DNA of 54,524 nt from Prochlorococcus marinus str. MIT 9302 (GTDB taxonomy: Bacteria; Cyanobacteriota; Cyanobacteriia; PCC-6307; Cyanobiaceae), in contig NZ_JNAM01000001.1 of the NCBI RefSeq assembly GCF_000759975.1, forward strand, positions 1 through 54,524, written 5' to 3'. Within the stretch, counting starts at the first letter, position 1, and each line of letters starts with the position of its first letter. A program made the position numbers and the translations under genes. The notes under the pieces are model-generated. The model was not told the origin of the DNA. It did no database searches and worked only from the letters and a program-made list of their open reading frames with translations. Shown one piece after another: positions 12,681 through 31,486 of the stretch.

Positions 12681-12757
12681 AAAAAAAAAGATCCCTCAAA
12701 GAGAGATCTTTTAAAAAACTGATTTATATTTAGTGTTTCCTTGTTTCCACTAAATTA
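12681..12757 (-). ncRNA. yfr2-like: Yfr2-family small RNA
   Basis: Read on the minus strand, TTTAGTG and CACTAAA form a 7-bp hairpin whose loop contains GAAACAAGGAAA. This places two GGAAACA motifs in and around the loop, the hallmark of the Yfr2-Yfr5 family. About 20 bases later a strong hairpin (AAAGATC-t-CTC / GAG-g-GATCTTT) is followed by nine T, a typical intrinsic terminator. The 5' end is set near the hairpin as in known family members but is not determined. The gene lies in the 500-bp gap between the DUF1499 gene and the next small ORF and is tandem with a Yfr10-like RNA. Confidence 0.78.
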
Positions 12758-12855
12758 AATCAATTCCTCCTACACACAAATCTAATATCACACCTAAATT
12801 TGAAAAATGTAATACCTATTAGACCTCTATCTTAACTGTCACACTGCTAAAAAAT

Positions 12856-12931
12856 ACAAAAAGTACCCGAACAATTTCATTCGAGTACTTTTAAATTTAT
12901 CAGAAAAAAGTGTGTGAGGAGTTTCTGATAT
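12856..12931 (-). ncRNA. yfr10-like: Yfr10-like small RNA carrying the Yfr1 motif
   Basis: On the minus strand the sequence contains ACTCCTCACACAC (12910-12922), the ultra-conserved core of Yfr1 that is shared by the Yfr10 family. Unlike Yfr1, the core here lies in the loop of a stem made by TATCAGAAA (12922-12930) and TTTCTGATA. It is followed by a terminator hairpin AAAAGTAC / GTACTTTT (12859-12892) with a T run. Because structure and neighbours differ from Yfr1, which is present separately at 40.4 kb, Yfr10 is the better call. Rest of the gap 12549-13044: I see no other gene. Confidence 0.72.
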
Positions 12932-13743: not shown

Positions 13744-13890
13744 ATGCGTTTCAAGGTAAGTCTCATAAAAAACGGAAAGGAATTTGATGAGGTTGTCATA
13801 GCTAATAATAAAAAAGAAGCTATGCAAGTAGCTTTAAAAAACAATCCAGAAGCTCAGGCATTGAAATCTGATTGGACATTTAAGATTTAA
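13744..13890 (+). CDS. 48-residue soluble protein, unknown
   Basis: ATG at 13744, TAA at 13888-13890. The sequence MRFKVSLIKNGKEFDEVVIA, then NNKKEAMQVALKNNPEAQAL, reads as two beta-strands followed by a helix. It resembles the small strand-strand-helix proteins of phage and picocyanobacterial genomes. Its stop touches the end of the convergent znuB gene with no spacer. Confidence 0.6.
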   Translation: MRFKVSLIKNGKEFDEVVIANNKKEAMQVALKNNPEAQALKSDWTFKI

Positions 13891-14676
13891 TTATTTGCGC
13901 AGTTTAGGAATCAAAAGAGATGCTACACAAATAACACTAATTGCAGGCCCAGGCGACAGATTAAAGACTATAGAGAGAATAAAGCCCAGAAGTGAAATGC
14001 ATAATCCAAAAAATGAAGACCTCATCATTGCAATTCTTAAACTATGAGCCTTATTTAGCCCTAACAAAGTTGGGGTAGAAAGAAGAGCAATTACAAGAAT
14101 TACTCCCACCGCTGACATTGAACTAACAATTACTAATGCCGTCGTAAAACTCAAAGCAAGATTTAATAAAGAAACGTTTATACCACTTGCGGATGCACCT
14201 TCTGGATCTAATCCAACATAAACAACCTTTTCATATCCAAAAGTCATTAAGAGTATAAATACTAAAAAAGCAATTATTGTTCTAAGTAAATCTCCAAAAT
14301 TTGCTGTCAATAAATCTCCAAATAAAACTGCCTCCAAATCAATCCTTATTTCTAGTAGAGGAATAATCAGGACTCCAAACCCAAGCATTCCCGCTAATAT
14401 TGTGTTCATTATTGCTTCATAGTTTTCACTCTTTTTATTAGTTAAACTTTCCGCAATTACAGAACCTAAAAGACCACTGATCACCCCACCAATTGAGGGG
14501 TGAATTTTAAGCGCTAAGGCTAAAGCTAGTCCTGGCAAAACGCAGTGAGAAATTAAATTTACTTGAAGTAATCTCCTATGTGTTATTAATACAGTTCCCA
14601 TTGCTGGACATAGAATTCCTGAAAAAATAGTTATTATTAAAGGAATAAGCCACCAACTGCTATTAATAAAAGACAT
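13891..14676 (-). CDS. znuB: zinc ABC transporter permease ZnuB
   Basis: The 261-residue protein has about eight transmembrane helices, as in the ABC-3 metal permease family. Supporting blocks are the opening IPLIITIFSGILCPAMGTVL followed by the RRLLQVNLISHCVLPGLAL coupling region, and the later VYVGLDPEGASASGI with LVIVSSMSAVGVILVIALL. With ZnuC and ZnuA it would import Zn2+. Its start lies only 17 bp from the start of zur on the opposite strand. Its promoter must therefore lie inside zur, or it is transcribed by read-through from znuC across the antisense of zur. Confidence 0.9.
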   Translation of the reverse strand: MSFINSSWWLIPLIITIFSGILCPAMGTVLITHRRLLQVNLISHCVLPGLALALALKIHPSIGGVISGLLGSVIAESLTNKKSENYEAIMNTILAGMLGFGVLIIPLLEIRIDLEAVLFGDLLTANFGDLLRTIIAFLVFILLMTFGYEKVVYVGLDPEGASASGINVSLLNLALSFTTALVIVSSMSAVGVILVIALLSTPTLLGLNKAHSLRIAMMRSSFFGLCISLLGFILSIVFNLSPGPAISVICVASLLIPKLRK

Positions 14677-14693
14677 TAATCTAAAGATTCGGT

Positions 14694-15128
14694 ATGATCA
14701 AAAATACGGGACAAAAAAAGATTTCGGAAACAATGGTAACTAAGCCTGACATTACCAAAAGACAAGAGCAACTTCTTGAAGAACTTAATAAATGTGATGA
14801 TGAACTGAGCGGTCAAGAGTTGCATAGACAATTGATTGAAAGCGAAAAAGCTATGGGACTGACAACTGTTTACAGGAATCTTCAAGTTCTTATAAAGCAT
14901 GGTTTAATACGTTCAAGACATCTCCCAACTGGAGAGGTTCTTTACACTCCCGTAGATAGAGACATTCATCATTTGACCTGTGTTCAATGTGGTGAGACAT
15001 CAAAAATGGAAGGATGTCCGGTAAAAGATATTCATACACCCAAAACAAATCCAAAGAAATTCCAATTGTTGTTTCATACCCTCGAATATTTCGGACTTTG
15101 CCAGAACTGCTATCAAGCACAAAGTTAA
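14694..15128 (+). CDS. zur: Fur-family zinc regulator Zur
   Basis: The 144-residue protein has a winged helix with the DNA-reading stretch MGLTTVYRNLQVLIKHGLI, a dimerisation domain opening HHLTCVQCG and a second Cys pair GLCQNCYQ. These give the structural Cys4 zinc site of the Fur superfamily. Context with znuABC and a CobW GTPase marks it as the zinc sensor Zur rather than Fur. With zinc bound it would repress the transporter genes. Start at 14694 is the first ATG; an ATG at 14733 (MVTKPDITKRQEQLL) is also plausible. The gene sits antisense between znuB and znuC. Confidence 0.88.
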   Translation: MIKNTGQKKISETMVTKPDITKRQEQLLEELNKCDDELSGQELHRQLIESEKAMGLTTVYRNLQVLIKHGLIRSRHLPTGEVLYTPVDRDIHHLTCVQCGETSKMEGCPVKDIHTPKTNPKKFQLLFHTLEYFGLCQNCYQAQS

Positions 15129-15142
15129 AACTAAATATTTTT

Positions 15143-15913
15143 TTAATCACAACAATTATTATCCTCAATTGAGCTGATATTTATATCCTCTAATTTATCT
15201 TTTATAGAATCAGGGCTTCCAGAGGCCAATACAGCTTTATCCAAAACAATAACTTGATCATAACTATTTAACGAGGTACCCCAATCATGACTGCTTACCA
15301 ATAAAGAAAGACCAGCATCAGCAAGTTGACGAACAATTTTTAGAAAATCCTCCTTTGCAGGTGGATCTAAAGCTGCACAAGGTTCATCAAGAAGGTAAAT
15401 TTTAGCTGGAGACATTAATGTTTTGGCTAATAAAGCTCTTTGTTGTTGTCCACCGGATAAAGAATCAAGCCTTCTGTTAGCAATATTTGCAATGCCGACT
15501 CTTTGCATTGTGGCCTCCAATTCACAGCATTTATTAATCCATGCATTAGGGTTGGCAAGAAGAGCTTTTATTTGAAAAGGACTACTTCTTTTTGATTTTG
15601 AGTAATTTATTTGTCCTAATGAAACTAGTTTTTCTACAGTTATTGGAAATTTCCAATTCATTGAGCTTCTTTGTGGCATGAGTGCCACCTGAGATCTTTG
15701 TCTAATTAACTTCTCCCCGTCAATTGTTATTTGGCCATTATCAGGAATACATTGTCCCTGCAATAATCTTAAAAGAGTAGATTTGCCAGCTCCGTTTGGT
15801 CCGACTAGAGCAGTCAATGTACCTGGTTCAACTGTCACGGAAACTTTACTTATAGCCGGGCTTACATTTTTCGCATACGAATAAGATAAATTTTCTGCTA
15901 CGAGTAGTGACAT
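15143..15913 (-). CDS. znuC: zinc ABC transporter ATPase ZnuC
   Basis: The 256-residue protein has Walker A at residues 38-46 (GPNGAGKST), a Q-loop near MPQRSS, the signature LSGGQQQRALLAKTL, Walker B KIYLLDEPCAALDPP and a switch His in SSHDWG. It powers zinc import by ZnuB and ZnuA. The C-terminus carries a Cys pair (NNCCD) that could bind metal. It is divergent from znuA across a 128-bp region holding a Zur-type palindrome. Downstream on the same strand, after the antisense zur gene, lies znuB. Confidence 0.92.
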   Translation of the reverse strand: MSLLVAENLSYSYAKNVSPAISKVSVTVEPGTLTALVGPNGAGKSTLLRLLQGQCIPDNGQITIDGEKLIRQRSQVALMPQRSSMNWKFPITVEKLVSLGQINYSKSKRSSPFQIKALLANPNAWINKCCELEATMQRVGIANIANRRLDSLSGGQQQRALLAKTLMSPAKIYLLDEPCAALDPPAKEDFLKIVRQLADAGLSLLVSSHDWGTSLNSYDQVIVLDKAVLASGSPDSIKDKLEDINISSIEDNNCCD

Positions 15914-16004
15914 TAATGCGTGAACTTACAACCCCATAATATTTTAATTATGGTAAATAATTTACTTTAAGAACATTTTATACCTAAACTTGCATATAAA
16001 TATG

Positions 16005-16021
16005 AAAATGATTATCATTTT
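16005..16021. promoter_or_regulatory. Zur/Fur-type operator upstream of znuA
   Basis: AAAATGAT-t-ATCATTTT is a perfect 17-bp inverted repeat 20 bp upstream of the znuA start. It has the A/T-rich 7-1-7-like shape of Fur-superfamily boxes. Its position would block the znuA promoter and may also control the divergent znuC promoter. The zur gene within the same locus is the natural partner. Confidence 0.8.
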
Positions 16022-16041
16022 AAAATATCTATCATTTTTAT

Positions 16042-17166
16042 ATGTCAATTTTTAAGAGAATTTTTTCAAACTATATATCTCATAAAAAAGTATCTATCCG
16101 AAATTCACTCATCGCTAGTACGGCATTATTCTCAATAAATACAAACGTTGCCTTTGCTGAAAGTAAAAACTATGTAGCAGTTGAGCCTCTAACCTGCGAT
16201 ATCGTTAAATCTATAGCACTCCCTTCGGATGAAGTTACGTGTCTAGTAGACAGAAAACAAGATGTTCATGATTTAAAAATTTCGCCTAAACAGGCAAGAT
16301 TATTAAAAAAGGCAGATAAAGTTTTTACTTTAGGGACAGAAATGACACCCGCAATGAGGAATTGGGTGAAGAAAAATAGCACTGTTGTTTTAGGTGTAAG
16401 CGCAATTGATATTGACGATCATAGTGACCATGATGACCATGATGATCACGATGACCATGGACACTCAGCAAAGAAACATAACGACCATGATGACCACGAT
16501 GACCATGGACACTCAGCAAAGAAACATAACGACCATGATGACCATGATGACCATGATGACCACGACCATCATGATCACGGAGGCGTAGATCCACATGTCT
16601 GGCATGATCCTCATAACATCATCAAGATGAGTGAAGTCGTATCAAAAAGTCTTATAAAAGATGTGCCTGAAAGAAAACTACGTAAAGCTATCTCTAAAAG
16701 ATTCAAAACTGTTGATAAAACACTAGAAGATCTTGATAAATGGATTGTTAAACAAGTATCTACTATCCCTTCTTCAAATCGTGTAATTGTCTCAAAGCAT
16801 AAAGCTATGGATTACTATAGCGATGCATTTGGTTTTAAAACGATAAGTTTATTAGATTTCTTGGGTCATTCATCTAGCCTAAGGCCTCAGAACATATCAA
16901 AAGTTTTAAATGAGTTAAAGGAAGAAAATGTCAAAGTCATATTTAAGGAGCAAGAACCTGCTTCAAAATTAGTCAATAATTTAAGCAAGCAAAGTTCTAT
17001 CCCACTTTCTTCTAATCAAATTTTTGTAGATGGACTAATGATGAAAGGAAACACTATCACTGTGGCAGTTCATAACACATGCACTATCGTCAATGAACTT
17101 GGTGGCTCATGTGATGAGACAACAGGTTTTGATTTAGCAAGTAACTGGGGATCACTTAATCAATAA
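16042..17166 (+). CDS. znuA: zinc ABC transporter substrate-binding protein ZnuA
   Basis: The 374-residue protein has an N-terminal signal region (about residues 1-40, ending near Val-Ala-Phe-Ala-Glu) with a long basic lead. The mature protein shows the cluster A-I fold: early metal-site region DRKQDVHDLKISPKQ, the second ligand block GGVDPHVWHDP, then VIVSKHKAMDYYSDAFG, and a late acidic site. Between the first and second ligand blocks (about residues 125-182) lies a very long His/Asp-rich loop, which in ZnuA proteins delivers or senses zinc. A Zur-type box precedes the gene. Confidence 0.93.
   Translation: MSIFKRIFSNYISHKKVSIRNSLIASTALFSINTNVAFAESKNYVAVEPLTCDIVKSIALPSDEVTCLVDRKQDVHDLKISPKQARLLKKADKVFTLGTEMTPAMRNWVKKNSTVVLGVSAIDIDDHSDHDDHDDHDDHGHSAKKHNDHDDHDDHGHSAKKHNDHDDHDDHDDHDHHDHGGVDPHVWHDPHNIIKMSEVVSKSLIKDVPERKLRKAISKRFKTVDKTLEDLDKWIVKQVSTIPSSNRVIVSKHKAMDYYSDAFGFKTISLLDFLGHSSSLRPQNISKVLNELKEENVKVIFKEQEPASKLVNNLSKQSSIPLSSNQIFVDGLMMKGNTITVAVHNTCTIVNELGGSCDETTGFDLASNWGSLNQ
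16414..16581 (+). repeat. His/Asp-rich repeat region in znuA with 48-bp tandem units
   Basis: About 56 codons consist mostly of HDD and HGH units. A 16-residue unit (HDDHDDHGHSAKKHND) occurs twice in tandem; the marker acactcagca is at 16461 and 16509, giving a 48-bp period. Smaller 9-bp (Asp-His-Asp) repeats flank it. Near identity at DNA level suggests recent expansion, and length polymorphism is likely. Confidence 0.92.
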
Positions 17167-17250
17167 AATTTTATAGATAAAAACGGTTTTCATTTTGATT
17201 TTTTGATTATTATATTGATAGTTAGCATTACATTTTAAAAACAGAGAGAA

Positions 17251-26402: not shown

Positions 26403-27272
26403 TTATTTTTTATCATTATTTGCATATGGGCCTAAAAATTCACTAGCGTCTCTTCCCATTACTTTAGCAAGATTTAAACTTTTATCTATATCCCATTTAG
26501 ATGCCATTCCATAAAGAATGCCCGCAGCGAAAGAATCGCCACATCCATAAGAATCAACCTTTAATTTTTTATTTTTAAGAGCCTTATATCTTCCTCCTGG
26601 AAATATTATGCCTCCCTTCTCTCCTTCGGTTTTAATAGTATATTTAGGCATTACAGATAATTCGGAAAAAGAAAAAAATTCCCCTGGATCAAGATTACTG
26701 CATATTAATCCATCTAAAAGGACATTTGATTTATTAATTGTATTCAATCCCACCCTTGGTGTTGTACACAGTATTGAAGCTGATCTAGCTATTTTAAAAA
26801 TCTCTGAATCAGATGCAGTAATAAAAATTCCGTCCATTTTTTTTAAAATGCTCCAGTCTAAGTTGTCTTTATAATTTGGAGCTAACCTTTCTCCAATAAC
26901 TGTTATTGCTCTATCCTCTCGATAATCAACCATACTAAACCCTCTTCTAGTAGGTTTATCACGCCATGCCACATGTAACTTAATTCCCATATTTGAGAGA
27001 ATTTTGAAGCATCTATCTCCATATTCATCATTACCTAATGCAGTAAAAAAATGAATTTGGTTTAAAGTTAGTTCAGAAAGTCTTTTTGCGATAACAGAGC
27101 CTGCACCAGCTGGATTTTCGAGGGACTTTTCAGAATGAGAAATAACTCCCGGTTTTGGTAATTGATCGACCTTTAAGAAATTCATCCACTCAACGTGACC
27201 AACTACAGCAAAATTTAAATTTCCTTTTTTAAATTTATAGTCTGCAAATTTATCATTCTTTTCAAACGCCAT
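26403..27272 (-). CDS. PfkB-family carbohydrate kinase
   Basis: The 289-residue protein has a ribokinase-like fold. The N-terminal motif region shows NPAGAGSVIAKRLSEL (the Gly-rich substrate loop). The C-terminal signature DSYGCGDSFAAGILYGMA contains the catalytic Asp and the anion-hole GxGD. It transfers phosphate from ATP to a sugar or nucleoside; the specific substrate cannot be read from the sequence. The N-terminus (residues 1-20) is longer than in minimal family members. Confidence 0.85.
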   Translation of the reverse strand: MAFEKNDKFADYKFKKGNLNFAVVGHVEWMNFLKVDQLPKPGVISHSEKSLENPAGAGSVIAKRLSELTLNQIHFFTALGNDEYGDRCFKILSNMGIKLHVAWRDKPTRRGFSMVDYREDRAITVIGERLAPNYKDNLDWSILKKMDGIFITASDSEIFKIARSASILCTTPRVGLNTINKSNVLLDGLICSNLDPGEFFSFSELSVMPKYTIKTEGEKGGIIFPGGRYKALKNKKLKVDSYGCGDSFAAGILYGMASKWDIDKSLNLAKVMGRDASEFLGPYANNDKK

Positions 27273-27295
27273 AAGCTTTTAAATACTATTATTAA

Positions 27296-27685
27296 ATGAA
27301 ATATTTTTCACTAATGAATTCATTTAACATTTTAAAAGAAAATAAACAGATACTTTCTTATCTTTACCTTTTTCTATCTATTTTAGGCGCTGTCCTTCCT
27401 ATGATGGCAAATTTCGAATTTGCTAGGGAATATGGCAATAGTTTTGATATTAATAACTTCATTTCCTTAGCTAATGCCAACCCTGCAGCTCAGTCAATAT
27501 CTAGAGACTTATTAGTAGGTGCAAGCGCTATTTTCATATGGATAGTAAATGAATCAAAAAAATTAAATATTAAGAATATGTGGATTGTTTATATTGGAAC
27601 TTTTCTTATTGCATTTGCATTCTCTGCCCCTTTATTCTTATTTCTAAGAGAGAGAAGAATTATGGAATTAGAAAAGATTAATTAA
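27296..27685 (+). CDS. DUF2834 membrane protein
   Basis: The 129-residue protein has three to four helices. Its blocks match DUF2834: YLYLFLSILGAVLPMMANFE, then FISLANANPAAQSISRDLLV, and the end SAPLFLFLRERRI. Function unknown. Its stop shares the TTAA at 27682-27685 with the stop of the convergent MFS gene. Confidence 0.8.
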   Translation: MKYFSLMNSFNILKENKQILSYLYLFLSILGAVLPMMANFEFAREYGNSFDINNFISLANANPAAQSISRDLLVGASAIFIWIVNESKKLNIKNMWIVYIGTFLIAFAFSAPLFLFLRERRIMELEKIN

Positions 27686-28911
27686 AATAATCTTCTAAAA
27701 AGAATTGCAAATAAAATAAAGCAAAAACATGAGATAGAAAACCAGATTATTGAAGCATAACCAAATAGATCTAATATTCTTCCCGAAATAAATGGTCCAA
27801 AAAAATAACCCATAGCGAAACACTGTGACAATAGAGCAAGCGCAAAACCTTTTTTGTTTGAAGGGGCTATCCTGAAAACAACATCTGTGGATGTTGGTAG
27901 AAATGAAGCAGTCCCTAAACTTACTAATATCAAAGAAAAAGAAATCAAATAAAAAGCTGGGATATTTAAATAACTAGAAATAAATAATAAAAACGAAGCA
28001 AAAGAGAAGTTTATCAAACTAAATTTCAAGCCAAATAATCTTCCTTTCTTTGATATCCAAGCACCTACAGGCCATTGTAAAAACAATAATAAAATTAATT
28101 GAATAGAAATTATAAGACTAGTAATTTCTTTACTTAACGCATTGCGATATACTCCACCTTTAACAAGATCCAAAGGCAAAGTTACTTGAATCAAAGCTAA
28201 AAACGTAGTTATCAATAAGATAGATATAATTATTATTAAGGAATTTTTGTTCCATTTCAATTGTCCCTGATTTGTTGGATCTTCCAATTTTTTTTGGAAA
28301 TTTTCTAGGTTTCTTTTTATGGAATAACTATTTCTTGATATTAAATATGTAATAACTAACATACAAAATATATCATTAATAAAAATTGACTTGGAGTACA
28401 AAAAATTCGTCATAAAACCACCCAAGAATACCCCTAAGAATATTCCTAAAGCCTCCGAACTTCTAACAAGAGCATAAGCTTTTCGTGTGTCGATCGATTG
28501 GCAAAAATAAGGCACTCCGAATTCCGCAGCAGGCCAATATATTCCTGCAGCTGCCCCAACTAATGATTGTCCAATTATGTAAAAAAAAGTATCTCTTGAA
28601 AAAATGAGGAATAAGCTAGCTGCAATACTTAATATTGATGAAGCTATTAATGGAGATTGTATTTCCCCTGTTTTATTTAGATAATTACCTGTGAAGAGTC
28701 TTGTTATGGTTCCTATTATTGCTGATATAGTAAACCCCAAGCCAATATCTGTTGCCGAAAAGCCAATGTTATTAAAAATGATTGATGTTAAATAAATTAC
28801 ACCTCCGGCACCAAATGCAGCATAAAATCTTATCTTGGTTATTAACCTCAAATGATATGGAAATTGAATCCACCAATTTTTGCTAATTTGAAAACTGTTT
28901 GGACTGATCAC
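27682..28911 (-). CDS. MFS transporter
   Basis: The 409-residue protein has 12 predicted helices. A loop motif of the family, GNYLNKTGE-type between helices 2 and 3 (residues 74-82), and the repeat in the second half (PVGAWISKKGRLFG) support the Major Facilitator Superfamily. The opening WWIQFPYHLRLITKIRFYAA is a distinctive N-terminus. No ATG precedes this segment in frame, so the GTG at 28909-28911 is the likely start. Substrate unknown; possibly an exporter or sugar/drug type. The start abuts a GTG of the divergent hydrolase with only 2 bp between. Confidence 0.85.
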   Translation of the reverse strand: MISPNSFQISKNWWIQFPYHLRLITKIRFYAAFGAGGVIYLTSIIFNNIGFSATDIGLGFTISAIIGTITRLFTGNYLNKTGEIQSPLIASSILSIAASLFLIFSRDTFFYIIGQSLVGAAAGIYWPAAEFGVPYFCQSIDTRKAYALVRSSEALGIFLGVFLGGFMTNFLYSKSIFINDIFCMLVITYLISRNSYSIKRNLENFQKKLEDPTNQGQLKWNKNSLIIIISILLITTFLALIQVTLPLDLVKGGVYRNALSKEITSLIISIQLILLLFLQWPVGAWISKKGRLFGLKFSLINFSFASFLLFISSYLNIPAFYLISFSLILVSLGTASFLPTSTDVVFRIAPSNKKGFALALLSQCFAMGYFFGPFISGRILDLFGYASIIWFSISCFCFILFAILFRRLF

Positions 28912-28913
28912 AA

Positions 28914-30464
28914 GTGAAACACTTTTTTGTAATTTTTTTAGGTTTTTGTGGTTTATTTTTTAATAATGGTTCAAAGGCTGCAGAAAAAATAAATATTAAG
29001 TTTGAAGAAATGAATATCCCTCTTACTATAGAACAATTATCAAAATTAGAAAAATACAAAGATGATTCAACAGAATTAATAGATTGGTTAAAAAAAAATG
29101 GGTTTAAAAGAGTTTTTGAATTATCAAAATTTTTAGAATTTCCAATTTTCAAGGAAGAAGGATTAAATAGAGAAGTATTAAGAAGTTGGATAGGGCGTAG
29201 AATCCTCTCAGAATTAAGCAAAACTATTACAGTTTCAAATGACAATAATGGAATAGAAATTTATAACACTATAGAAAAGTTATTAGATGAAAAAAAAGAA
29301 GTTTCAACTATAGAAATCATAAAGGGATTACCTTCAGAAGAAATTTCACTGGATATTGATAATTTAATTTTAATAATTTCATCTTGGAAAAATGAATTAT
29401 CAATGCAAAAAGATCTCATATCCAAATTAAATAATCTTGAAAGAACGAACCAAAATGCCTTTAAAAATATTGAAAAAAAATCAACTCAAGATCTAATAAA
29501 GATTGATAAAAAAATTTATGCTCCTCACAGAGTAAAACCTTTTGAAATTGAAATATGGAAAAACAATAAAACAAATGATGATAAAGAACTAATAATTTTC
29601 ATGCCAGGACTTGGAGGCGAAATTAATAACTTCAAATGGATAGGCAACGAATTGACTAAAAGGGGATGGCCAATTGCATACATAGACCATAGAGGGAGTA
29701 ATTTAGAATCCTTCATAGAAGTAATCAACGGTAAGGAAGCAATCCCAGGAAGTGCAGACTTTTTCTTATATAGAATTAAAGATTTAGAGGCTGTATTAAA
29801 AGCTCATGAAAATGGGGAATTTGATTTAACTAATAATTCTTATATCTTAATGGGACATTCACTTGGTGCTTTAATAGCACTTTTATATGAAAGCAATAAA
29901 CCAACCTATAAACTTGAGGAAATATGTAATTCGGCATTAAATGACTTTGCACTGACAAATTTATCAAAATTACTTCAATGTCAATTGAGCGAAATCCCAT
30001 TCAATGAGAGAAATAACACTAATAAGGCCAGTGCGATAATAGGTTTTAATTCATTTGGCAGTTTATTATGGCCAACAGAAAAAATTTCTGGGATCAAAAC
30101 ACCAACTCTCCTTATAGGAGGAACATATGATCTGATTACACCCTTAATGAATGAACAATTTATAGTTTTTTCGGCTTTAAATAATCCATCAAATAGGTTT
30201 CTAATTATTGAGGGTGCAAGTCATTTCTCACCCATAAGAATTAATGATAGTAATAAAGAGACTAATGACGTCTTCAAAATAAGTGAATCTTTTATTGGTT
30301 CAGATCCAATATTAGTGCAAGATTTATCTGCGAAATTTATAGTTGAATTTTTAAAAAATATTAAGGAGAAAAAAATACCTACAGTTGTTAAAAATCAAAG
30401 AGATTTGGGACTTGATTTCCATCTTTTGGATCTTGAAACTATTAAAGAAGTTTCTAAAAATTAG
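28914..30464 (+). CDS. exported alpha/beta hydrolase with N-terminal DUF1400 domain
   Basis: The 516-residue protein starts at GTG 28914. A signal peptide (about residues 1-23, ending Ser-Lys-Ala-Ala) is followed by a DUF1400 domain (about 24-160), a cyanobacterial-specific extension. The hydrolase core follows, with the oxyanion block FMPGLGGEINNFKWIG, the nucleophile elbow GHSLGALIAL and a late His in EGASHFSPI. Probably a periplasmic or lumenal esterase or lipase. Substrate unknown. It ends in a 4-bp overlap with the convergent permease gene. Confidence 0.85.
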   Translation: MKHFFVIFLGFCGLFFNNGSKAAEKINIKFEEMNIPLTIEQLSKLEKYKDDSTELIDWLKKNGFKRVFELSKFLEFPIFKEEGLNREVLRSWIGRRILSELSKTITVSNDNNGIEIYNTIEKLLDEKKEVSTIEIIKGLPSEEISLDIDNLILIISSWKNELSMQKDLISKLNNLERTNQNAFKNIEKKSTQDLIKIDKKIYAPHRVKPFEIEIWKNNKTNDDKELIIFMPGLGGEINNFKWIGNELTKRGWPIAYIDHRGSNLESFIEVINGKEAIPGSADFFLYRIKDLEAVLKAHENGEFDLTNNSYILMGHSLGALIALLYESNKPTYKLEEICNSALNDFALTNLSKLLQCQLSEIPFNERNNTNKASAIIGFNSFGSLLWPTEKISGIKTPTLLIGGTYDLITPLMNEQFIVFSALNNPSNRFLIIEGASHFSPIRINDSNKETNDVFKISESFIGSDPILVQDLSAKFIVEFLKNIKEKKIPTVVKNQRDLGLDFHLLDLETIKEVSKN

Positions 30465-31486
30465 TACTCTATTCTTGGATCTAAATAGGCAATTAAAATA
30501 TCTACAAAGAGATTTAAAGAAACTATAAGCATAGAAGTAAAAATTACAATACCTTGAACCAAGGTATAGTCTCTCTGAGAAATTGCTTCATGTAATCTTA
30601 AAGCAATACCTGGCCATGAAAAAGTTACTTCAAATAAAAGAGCACCTCCTGCTAGTGAAGCCATTGTCAAACCAGAAATAGTGACAATTGGTAATAGAGC
30701 GTTAGGCAAAGCATGGTTTAAAAAAATTTTTTTTCTCGATATTCCTCTACATATAGCAGCATTAACATAATCACTTTTTAATGTCTTATCCAAATTTACT
30801 CTTAATGACCGGCTGAATATACCACTTAATAGAAAGCCAAGAGTAATGGAGGGAAGTGAGAGATGATAAAGGCTATCTTTTAAAGCAATAATATTATTTG
30901 AAAGAATACTATCTAAAACTAGAAAACCTGTAATTTGAGGTTGTTGCTGAAAGATTGGAAATCTACCCCCAATTGGGGAAATATTAAAATATACAGAAAA
31001 TAATAATTGAACTAACATTGCTCCCCAAAACGGAGGAATTGCATATGTTGCCATTCCAAATATTCTAACAATATAGTCAGTTTTTTTACCTCTATTTCTT
31101 AAACCAATAAATCCCAATAGAAATCCAATTAGCATGGCACTCAATATTGAAAAGAAACCAAGTTCAAGACTTGCAGGCAATGACTTAAGAATTATATTTA
31201 GGACTGGCTCTTGAGTACTAAGAGATTGGCCAAAATCTAAATGTAATACATCGTTAATGTAGGAAAAATATTGATTTATTAAAGATTCATTTAGCCCCAA
31301 TTTATTTCTTAGAAATTCCCTTGAAACCTCATCTGCTCCTGATCCAAGAATGGCATCAACAGGATCACCTGGAGCAACTCTTAATAAAATAAACACTAAT
31401 GAAGAAATTATCCACAACATTATTGGAATTAATGAAATCTTTAATAAAGAATAATTTAGTAATTTATTTAAATTTCTACTCATCAA
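30461..31486 (-). CDS. peptide/nickel-type ABC transporter permease (DppB family)
   Basis: The 341-residue protein has six helices. The N-terminal hallmark of DppB/OppB is present: LVFILLRVAPGDPVDAILG. The EAA loop that contacts the ATPase reads YVNAAICRGISRKKIFLNHA. It overlaps the upstream substrate-binding lipoprotein gene by 11 bp, so the two are one operon. The second permease (DppC) and the ATPases are not in this window and must be encoded elsewhere if the transporter is complete. Confidence 0.9.
   Translation of the reverse strand: MMSRNLNKLLNYSLLKISLIPIMLWIISSLVFILLRVAPGDPVDAILGSGADEVSREFLRNKLGLNESLINQYFSYINDVLHLDFGQSLSTQEPVLNIILKSLPASLELGFFSILSAMLIGFLLGFIGLRNRGKKTDYIVRIFGMATYAIPPFWGAMLVQLLFSVYFNISPIGGRFPIFQQQPQITGFLVLDSILSNNIIALKDSLYHLSLPSITLGFLLSGIFSRSLRVNLDKTLKSDYVNAAICRGISRKKIFLNHALPNALLPIVTISGLTMASLAGGALLFEVTFSWPGIALRLHEAISQRDYTLVQGIVIFTSMLIVSLNLFVDILIAYLDPRIEY

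Follow-up and report, generated by a model that had tools for sequence, protein, structure and literature searches.

Why should the gene for a FUR-family regulator lie, on the opposite strand, between two genes of a metal importer? The question is raised by a 54,524-nucleotide stretch of the 1.75 Mb genome of Prochlorococcus marinus str. MIT 9302 (the window, below), in which znuB and znuC occupy the minus strand and zur the plus strand between them. On the far side, znuA diverges from znuC and is followed, also on the plus strand, by a CobW/COG0523-type gene. The relevant features are:

13891–14676, minus strand: znuB, ABC-3 family permease (Pfam PF00950, E 4.8e-43)
14670–14698, plus strand: promoter-like pair for zur, AAGACA-17-TATGAT, its first hexamer overlapping the znuB start codon
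14677–14732: region between the znuB start and the likely zur start, 56 bp, without a Zur box
14694–15128, plus strand: zur, FUR family, longest open reading frame (PF01475, E 2.8e-19)
14749–14793: 45-bp block in zur, approximately codons 6–21 counted from 14733, under strong synonymous constraint in the window's genus
15129–15142: convergent zur/znuC gap, 14 bp between stop codons, without a terminator-like site
15143–15913, minus strand: znuC, ABC transporter ATPase (PF00005, ABC_tran)
16003–16023: putative Zur box TGAAAATGATTATCATTTTAA between znuC and znuA, 26.2 bits, the top score of the position weight matrix (PWM) in the window
16042–17166, plus strand: znuA, substrate-binding protein with a His/Asp-rich loop (PF01297, ZnuA)
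17178–17198: second Zur-box-like site, upstream of the CobW/COG0523-type gene, 16.6 bits
17251–18600, plus strand: CobW/COG0523-type GTPase (Pfam cobW)

The original prediction described znuC and znuB as minus-strand genes split by a plus-strand zur, with 14 bp separating the zur and znuC stop codons; coordinates, strands, gene types and this gap all hold. The 17 bp that it placed between the znuB and zur starts are true of the longest open reading frame only, the gap between the genes being about 56 bp. Very probably zur starts at the ATG at 14733 and not at 14694. The upstream start is doubtful because its ATG overlaps the -10 hexamer TATGAT (14693–14698) of the promoter-like pair, which stands at the same place in 89/89 unique same-genus sequences; because two same-genus relatives (L104 and L105) carry a stop codon inside the 14694–14733 extension; and because an ATG matching 14733 is present in 103/103 same-genus loci. 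Among 68 low-GC loci of other genera (73 minus five re-fetched same-genus loci), the zur ATG lies 51–57 bases from the znuB start in all but one (L200), and in GC-rich loci the two starts are approximately 24–33 bases apart (57 in L228). With the zur start so corrected, the nested layout is confirmed as genuine.

Tight packing by itself is unremarkable. The window's 50 open reading frames (at least 100 aa) include 11 strand-flip triads, and because four of the 11 have both gaps below 30 bp, tight gaps alone are not evidence. RNA folds at both junctions are likewise unremarkable (z -0.71 to 0.09). The strong part of the observation is conservation, which the original prediction had offered as a check in other picocyanobacteria: the strict layout is present in 90 of 120 Cyanobiaceae genomes and in 30 of 48 genera, GC-rich ones among them (the sample combines 30 best-match genomes with 90 picked from 300 genomes of 59 genera). 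Outside these 90, genome G278 (L196) shows the same gene order, its znuB being truncated where the contig ends. In the best 80 of 175 confirmed loci the full layout was found 79 times, the remaining locus (L029) being too short for all of znuB; another scan recovered the order in 110 of 111 loci, the last of which is, by elimination, L002, where the same genome has another gene of the FUR family. The distance between the 3' ends of zur and znuC ranges from -16 to 95 bp, with a median of 13, across 186 loci that include some duplicates. In the loci examined the layout is kept beyond background synteny: eight of them (L265–L271 and L276) retain znuC–zur–znuB while the window's other proteins are missing from approximately 15 kb (open reading frames no shorter than 100 aa, matched at E 1e-10 or lower, CobW- or ABC-type matches excepted).

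The nested position is also dispensable, since 18 of the 48 genera have zur outside the layout. Among the 30 genomes without the strict layout, znuC sits immediately next to znuB in g31, g2, g34, g5 and g29, with zur elsewhere, and the two share a strand but are further apart in g9 and g18. Eight genera gave no close ZnuB match (g23, g24, g30, g32, g37, g48, g51 and g59), and for eleven genomes coverage was of the zur surroundings alone (G122, G129, G098, G131, G265, G213, G186, G082, G101, G005 and G278). Beyond the Cyanobiaceae, 20 loci (L240–L259) showed no zur match within about 1.5 kb of znuB; in 13 of these znuC sits beside znuB on the same strand. The znuA–CobW neighbourhood occurs with znuC–znuB and without zur in L278 and L279. 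Three irregular cases were also seen. In L272 (G001, g2), zur is beside a second znuC that aligns only as two overlapping pieces, no znuB was found beyond it, and an adjacent znuC–znuB pair lies approximately 4.6 kb away. In L171 (G102:C1:60784-62839) the zur match falls into two parts separated by about 1.6 kb, of which one adjoins znuB, and the gene looks split. Finally, the incomplete genome G016 (81%) has two nested zur–znuB loci, L112 and L142, on different contigs, reflecting either duplication or a mixed assembly.

Candidate operators were scored with a PWM trained on sites from the znuC/znuA intergenic region, 16003–16023 included; the sites are putative, and the informative part of the scan is the contrast between regions. 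A Zur box of at least 16 bits lies upstream of znuC in 176 of 184 loci; scores fall below 11 bits in L131, L158, L159, L205, L207, L211 and L214, the last three having partial znuC alignments. At the zur/znuB end, by contrast, the best score in 14600–14800 is -3.3 bits, and the same region reaches at most 8.9 bits in any of 186 nested loci (some places fetched twice). The second box-like site suggests that the CobW/COG0523-type gene is possibly part of the same regulon.

The closest solved structure to the zur protein is 7ne9 (E 2.1e-45), which we take to be Zur of Synechococcus WH8102, and the protein also matches 2o03, a 'probable Zinc uptake regulation protein FurB' (E 3.9e-17). The NCBIfam Zur equivalog PRK11639 was not reached (29.7 bits against a cut-off of 167); the PerR and Fur models score higher (50.9 and 48.6 bits), also below cut-off, and among the NCBIfam matches listed there is no cyanobacterial Zur model. 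The importer is probably a target repressed by Zur.

Pfam matches to an ABC-3 permease, an ATPase and a ZnuA-type binding protein make the parts of a ZnuABC importer complete. Among the NCBIfam matches listed, neither zur nor the importer proteins reach any cut-off; the best importer models are those of zinc AztB, AztA and AztC, all below it. Most solved structures that match znuA are of manganese or iron proteins; they include zinc AdcA. The homolog of the window's znuA in MED4 is presumably PMM1032. In the parts of the literature available to us, PMM1032 appears as an ABC binding protein, marked 'possibly Mn', and is mentioned together with slr2043 (PMC9606707, PMC4079066). The available part of a further study reports a predicted zinc-binding ZnuA cluster nearly missing from Prochlorococcus and a predicted manganese-binding MntC cluster in nearly all picocyanobacteria (PMC8786288), a distribution that counts against a simple zinc reading of znuA here. 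It is mainly the predicted Zur box that favours zinc as the substrate, and the metal specificity of znuA is uncertain.

How, then, would znuB be expressed together with znuC? The locus has the form of a non-contiguous operon, with an opposite-strand gene between functionally linked genes of the same strand. The reading best supported by the sequence, to which we give a little under an even chance, is that a shared znuC–znuB transcript crosses zur in antisense. Read-through is favoured because the Zur box lies at znuC/znuA, none lies at zur/znuB, and terminator-like sites are few. From znuC to znuB, the window scan found no terminator-like site of the intrinsic type on the minus strand. Six of 161 unique loci have such a site there, where simple shuffles would give 27.8, and two of the 161 have one downstream of zur on the plus strand, where 6.2 are expected. 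Comparisons of the low-GC loci to dinucleotide shuffles concern intrinsic sites only, and the counts come from related coding sequences and hence are not independent. With this in mind, antisense zur holds five sites against 34.7 expected and sense zur 49 against 16.5; for znuC the figures are 19 against 45.8 in antisense (ratio 0.41) and 55 against 39.4 in sense. Antisense znuB has eight against 12.5 (ratio 0.64), and its sense strand is depleted too, with 28 against 88.7 (ratio 0.32). No promoter-like pair was found within 300 bp upstream of znuB in any of 89 unique same-genus sequences, by a scan that is insensitive (the commonest znuC site was detected in four of 94 same-genus sequences). 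The direct adjacency of znuC and znuB in g31, g2, g34, g5 and g29 is a further point in favour of a shared transcript.

Under this shared-transcript reading, low zinc would release Zn-Zur from its operator, and polymerase starting at the znuC promoter would pass the convergent junction and transcribe zur in antisense. The transcript would supply at least part of the znuB mRNA in the manner of a non-contiguous operon. In a weaker step, traffic from znuC to znuB would oppose zur transcription through collision and duplex formation, and zur output might dip while the importer is on; modest tuning would be expected, and not a switch.

The operon as originally predicted is therefore plausible, given few terminators, a box at znuC/znuA only and a conserved layout; what tells against it is the constrained block at the start of zur, which may be a separate znuB promoter. 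The block 14749–14793 sits 73–117 bp upstream of znuB. In the window's genus, third-position diversity in zur is 0.00–0.056 across the first 20 codons compared to 0.12–0.23 later, and the synonymous diversity of codons 2–20 is 0.18 of that expected (p<0.001; here and below p values are by codon permutation, and the sequences are not independent). No such low is seen in zur genes located elsewhere (g34 0.96, g5 1.14). The block might serve as a promoter for znuB, as a signal for the translation of zur or as a binding site. If it is a promoter, then the locus would comprise two interlocked divergent pairs: znuA and znuC sharing the Zur box, and zur and znuB, with znuB served by its own non-Zur promoter within the 5' part of zur. 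Read-through from znuC would not be needed and overlap by znuC RNA would be incidental. An embedded znuB promoter, if confirmed, is also what the original prediction had itself named as evidence against it. We consider this account, the main rival, possible rather than probable. On the znuB strand no hexamer pair above threshold was found across zur in the window, a result that agrees with the 0 of 89 upstream of znuB in the genus, and strong constraint is confined to the window's genus. In g56, codons 2–10 are mildly low (0.50, p=0.035) and codons 11–20 high (2.12); pooled g11, g17, g39 and g52 are mildly low at codons 2–10 (0.70, p=0.043); and the distant nested genera are unconstrained (1.15 for codons 2–20). 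Moreover, the low could reflect translation of zur, the first codons of znuC being mildly low also (0.72, p=0.041).

It may instead be that zur simply landed between znuC and znuB and the order froze, the antisense overlap being without effect. Tight strand flips are frequent within the window, as the four triads attest, and the location of zur elsewhere in 18 of 48 genera fits such a relic. So does antisense RNA in MED4, which is pervasive and for which no effect was detected: in the available portion of a directional RNA-seq study it is present at approximately 73% of genes and does not account for differences between transcript and protein (PMC3430701). We think this unlikely, given that the block is found in 30 of 48 genera, GC-rich ones included, and that znuC–zur–znuB stays in place where its surrounding neighbours are gone. 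The MED4 operon map, as described in the accessible text, joins adjacent same-strand open reading frames (PMC3898218), so a znuC–zur–znuB unit would presumably go unreported by it; across titles and abstract openings in part of the open-licence literature we found no report of the nested layout or of antisense zur.

At the other extreme, de-repression might cut Zur enough to lock the importer on. The geometry allows it, since the antisense of zur would be contained whole in a znuC–znuB transcript, and neither a Zur box nor any other indication that zinc controls zur was found. Two considerations make this strong positive feedback very improbable: a Zur box is also missing from 23 of 28 zur genes that are not nested in this way, and existing Zur protein would be lost just by dilution or decay, which makes a strong switch unlikely in a slow grower. 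Any lowering of Zur by antisense feedback is speculative. We also tried the idea that antisense RNA substitutes for self-regulation, in which case zur genes elsewhere should carry boxes. It was unsupported: in 23 of the 28 loci scanned the region upstream of zur stays at or below 3.6 bits, and in the other five (L162, L167, L204, L170 and L168) it reaches 13 to 22 bits. In Synechococcus sp. WH8102, the available text reports that zur mRNA is zinc-independent (P > 0.80), with no Zur binding apparent at the zur promoter region (PMC9337993). Because of both results a zur without self-regulation is normal, and absence of the box is not special to the nested layout. The wider proposition, that picocyanobacteria carry a conserved non-contiguous operon whose importer mRNA acts as antisense regulator of its repressor, giving box-free zinc-dependent control of zur that is absent where zur lies elsewhere, we hold to be doubtful on the present sequence comparisons.

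In Listeria, a long mRNA of the repressor gene mogR covers flagellar genes. As the available text has it, this second mogR mRNA starts from a promoter 1,697 nt upstream of the start codon, and the resulting excludon, like the locus described here, sets a repressor gene opposite its targets with overlapping transcripts that could exclude each other (PMC7154746). The direction differs: in znuC–zur–znuB it is the target mRNA that would cover the repressor gene. The menE–menC–MW1733–ytkD–MW1731 operon of Staphylococcus aureus, from the same partly available source, also has an opposite-strand gene within one functional unit, with full-length antisense overlap expected (PMC7154746). For that operon, reports describe co-transcription, transcriptional interference and RNase III processing, whereas for znuC–zur–znuB they are inferred, and here the enclosed gene is likely to be the repressor of the unit itself.

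The nearest comparison is WH8102, made by arrangement, with orthology between its znu cluster and that of the window assumed. As far as the available text goes, a Zur box lies between divergent znuA and znuC, znuB stands with znuC, and the cluster is Zur-regulated; unlike in the window, zur (synw2401) is elsewhere, and znuC and znuB (synw0970 and synw0969) are consecutive (PMC9337993). In the zur mutant synw0968–0973, znuB, znuC and znuA among them, were raised, and we counted the rise of the adjacent znuC–znuB for the shared-transcript reading. At zero zinc, znuB rose just 1.4-fold (P = 0.83) although it adjoins znuC (PMC9337993), and we counted this against. With zur elsewhere and its mRNA zinc-independent, WH8102 offers a clean comparison with nested strains.

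Were the wider proposition of antisense control correct, the locus would be a family-wide case of a target that encloses its repressor gene in antisense orientation. Highly abundant photosynthetic cells with few regulatory proteins would have feedback wired in gene order and not in an operator. Lineages with zur elsewhere would serve as natural controls in which the effect is directly measurable, and one would have to reckon with deletion or tagging of zur in place changing znuB expression.

The polarity of the rearrangement depends on how a few loci are called. On the ZnuB tree, parsimony places a nested state at the root of the family clade (5 changes) when L127, where no znuC was found and zur looks split, is called nested; setting L127 to unknown makes the root ambiguous; adding outgroups makes it contiguous; and with L127, L133 and L128 all unknown it is nested (3 changes). 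A contiguous clade, L115–L117, falls inside nested clades (support 0.93–0.999). A fossil argument, by which zur had been inserted into an overlapping znuC–znuB junction, was dropped. In 13 of 14 contiguous-type loci znuC is adjacent, and 11 of the 13 have an in-frame GTG 8 nt before the znuC end (L116 and L278 being the same place); the GTG occupies the same position in 139 of 186 nested loci, and the conserved ZnuC tail explains it equally well. This His/Cys tail, commonly MGNHCCG, is frequent at the end of ZnuC in nested and in some contiguous loci, reads EDNNCCD at the end of the window's copy (15143–15170), and could be metal-binding.

Further observations concern the surroundings. A 48-aa open reading frame on the plus strand (13744–13890, read by eye) abuts the znuB stop codon, and znuB RNA might run antisense into it. 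About 1 kb past the znuB stop lie two Rfam small RNAs on the minus strand, Cyano-1 (RF01701, 69.1 bits; 12712–12779) and Yfr10 (RF02362, 55.6 bits; 12847–12929). Elsewhere in the window, 26403–31486 holds a run of open reading frames on alternating strands with gaps of 23, -4, 2 and -4 bp, and neighbouring transcripts probably overlap there too.
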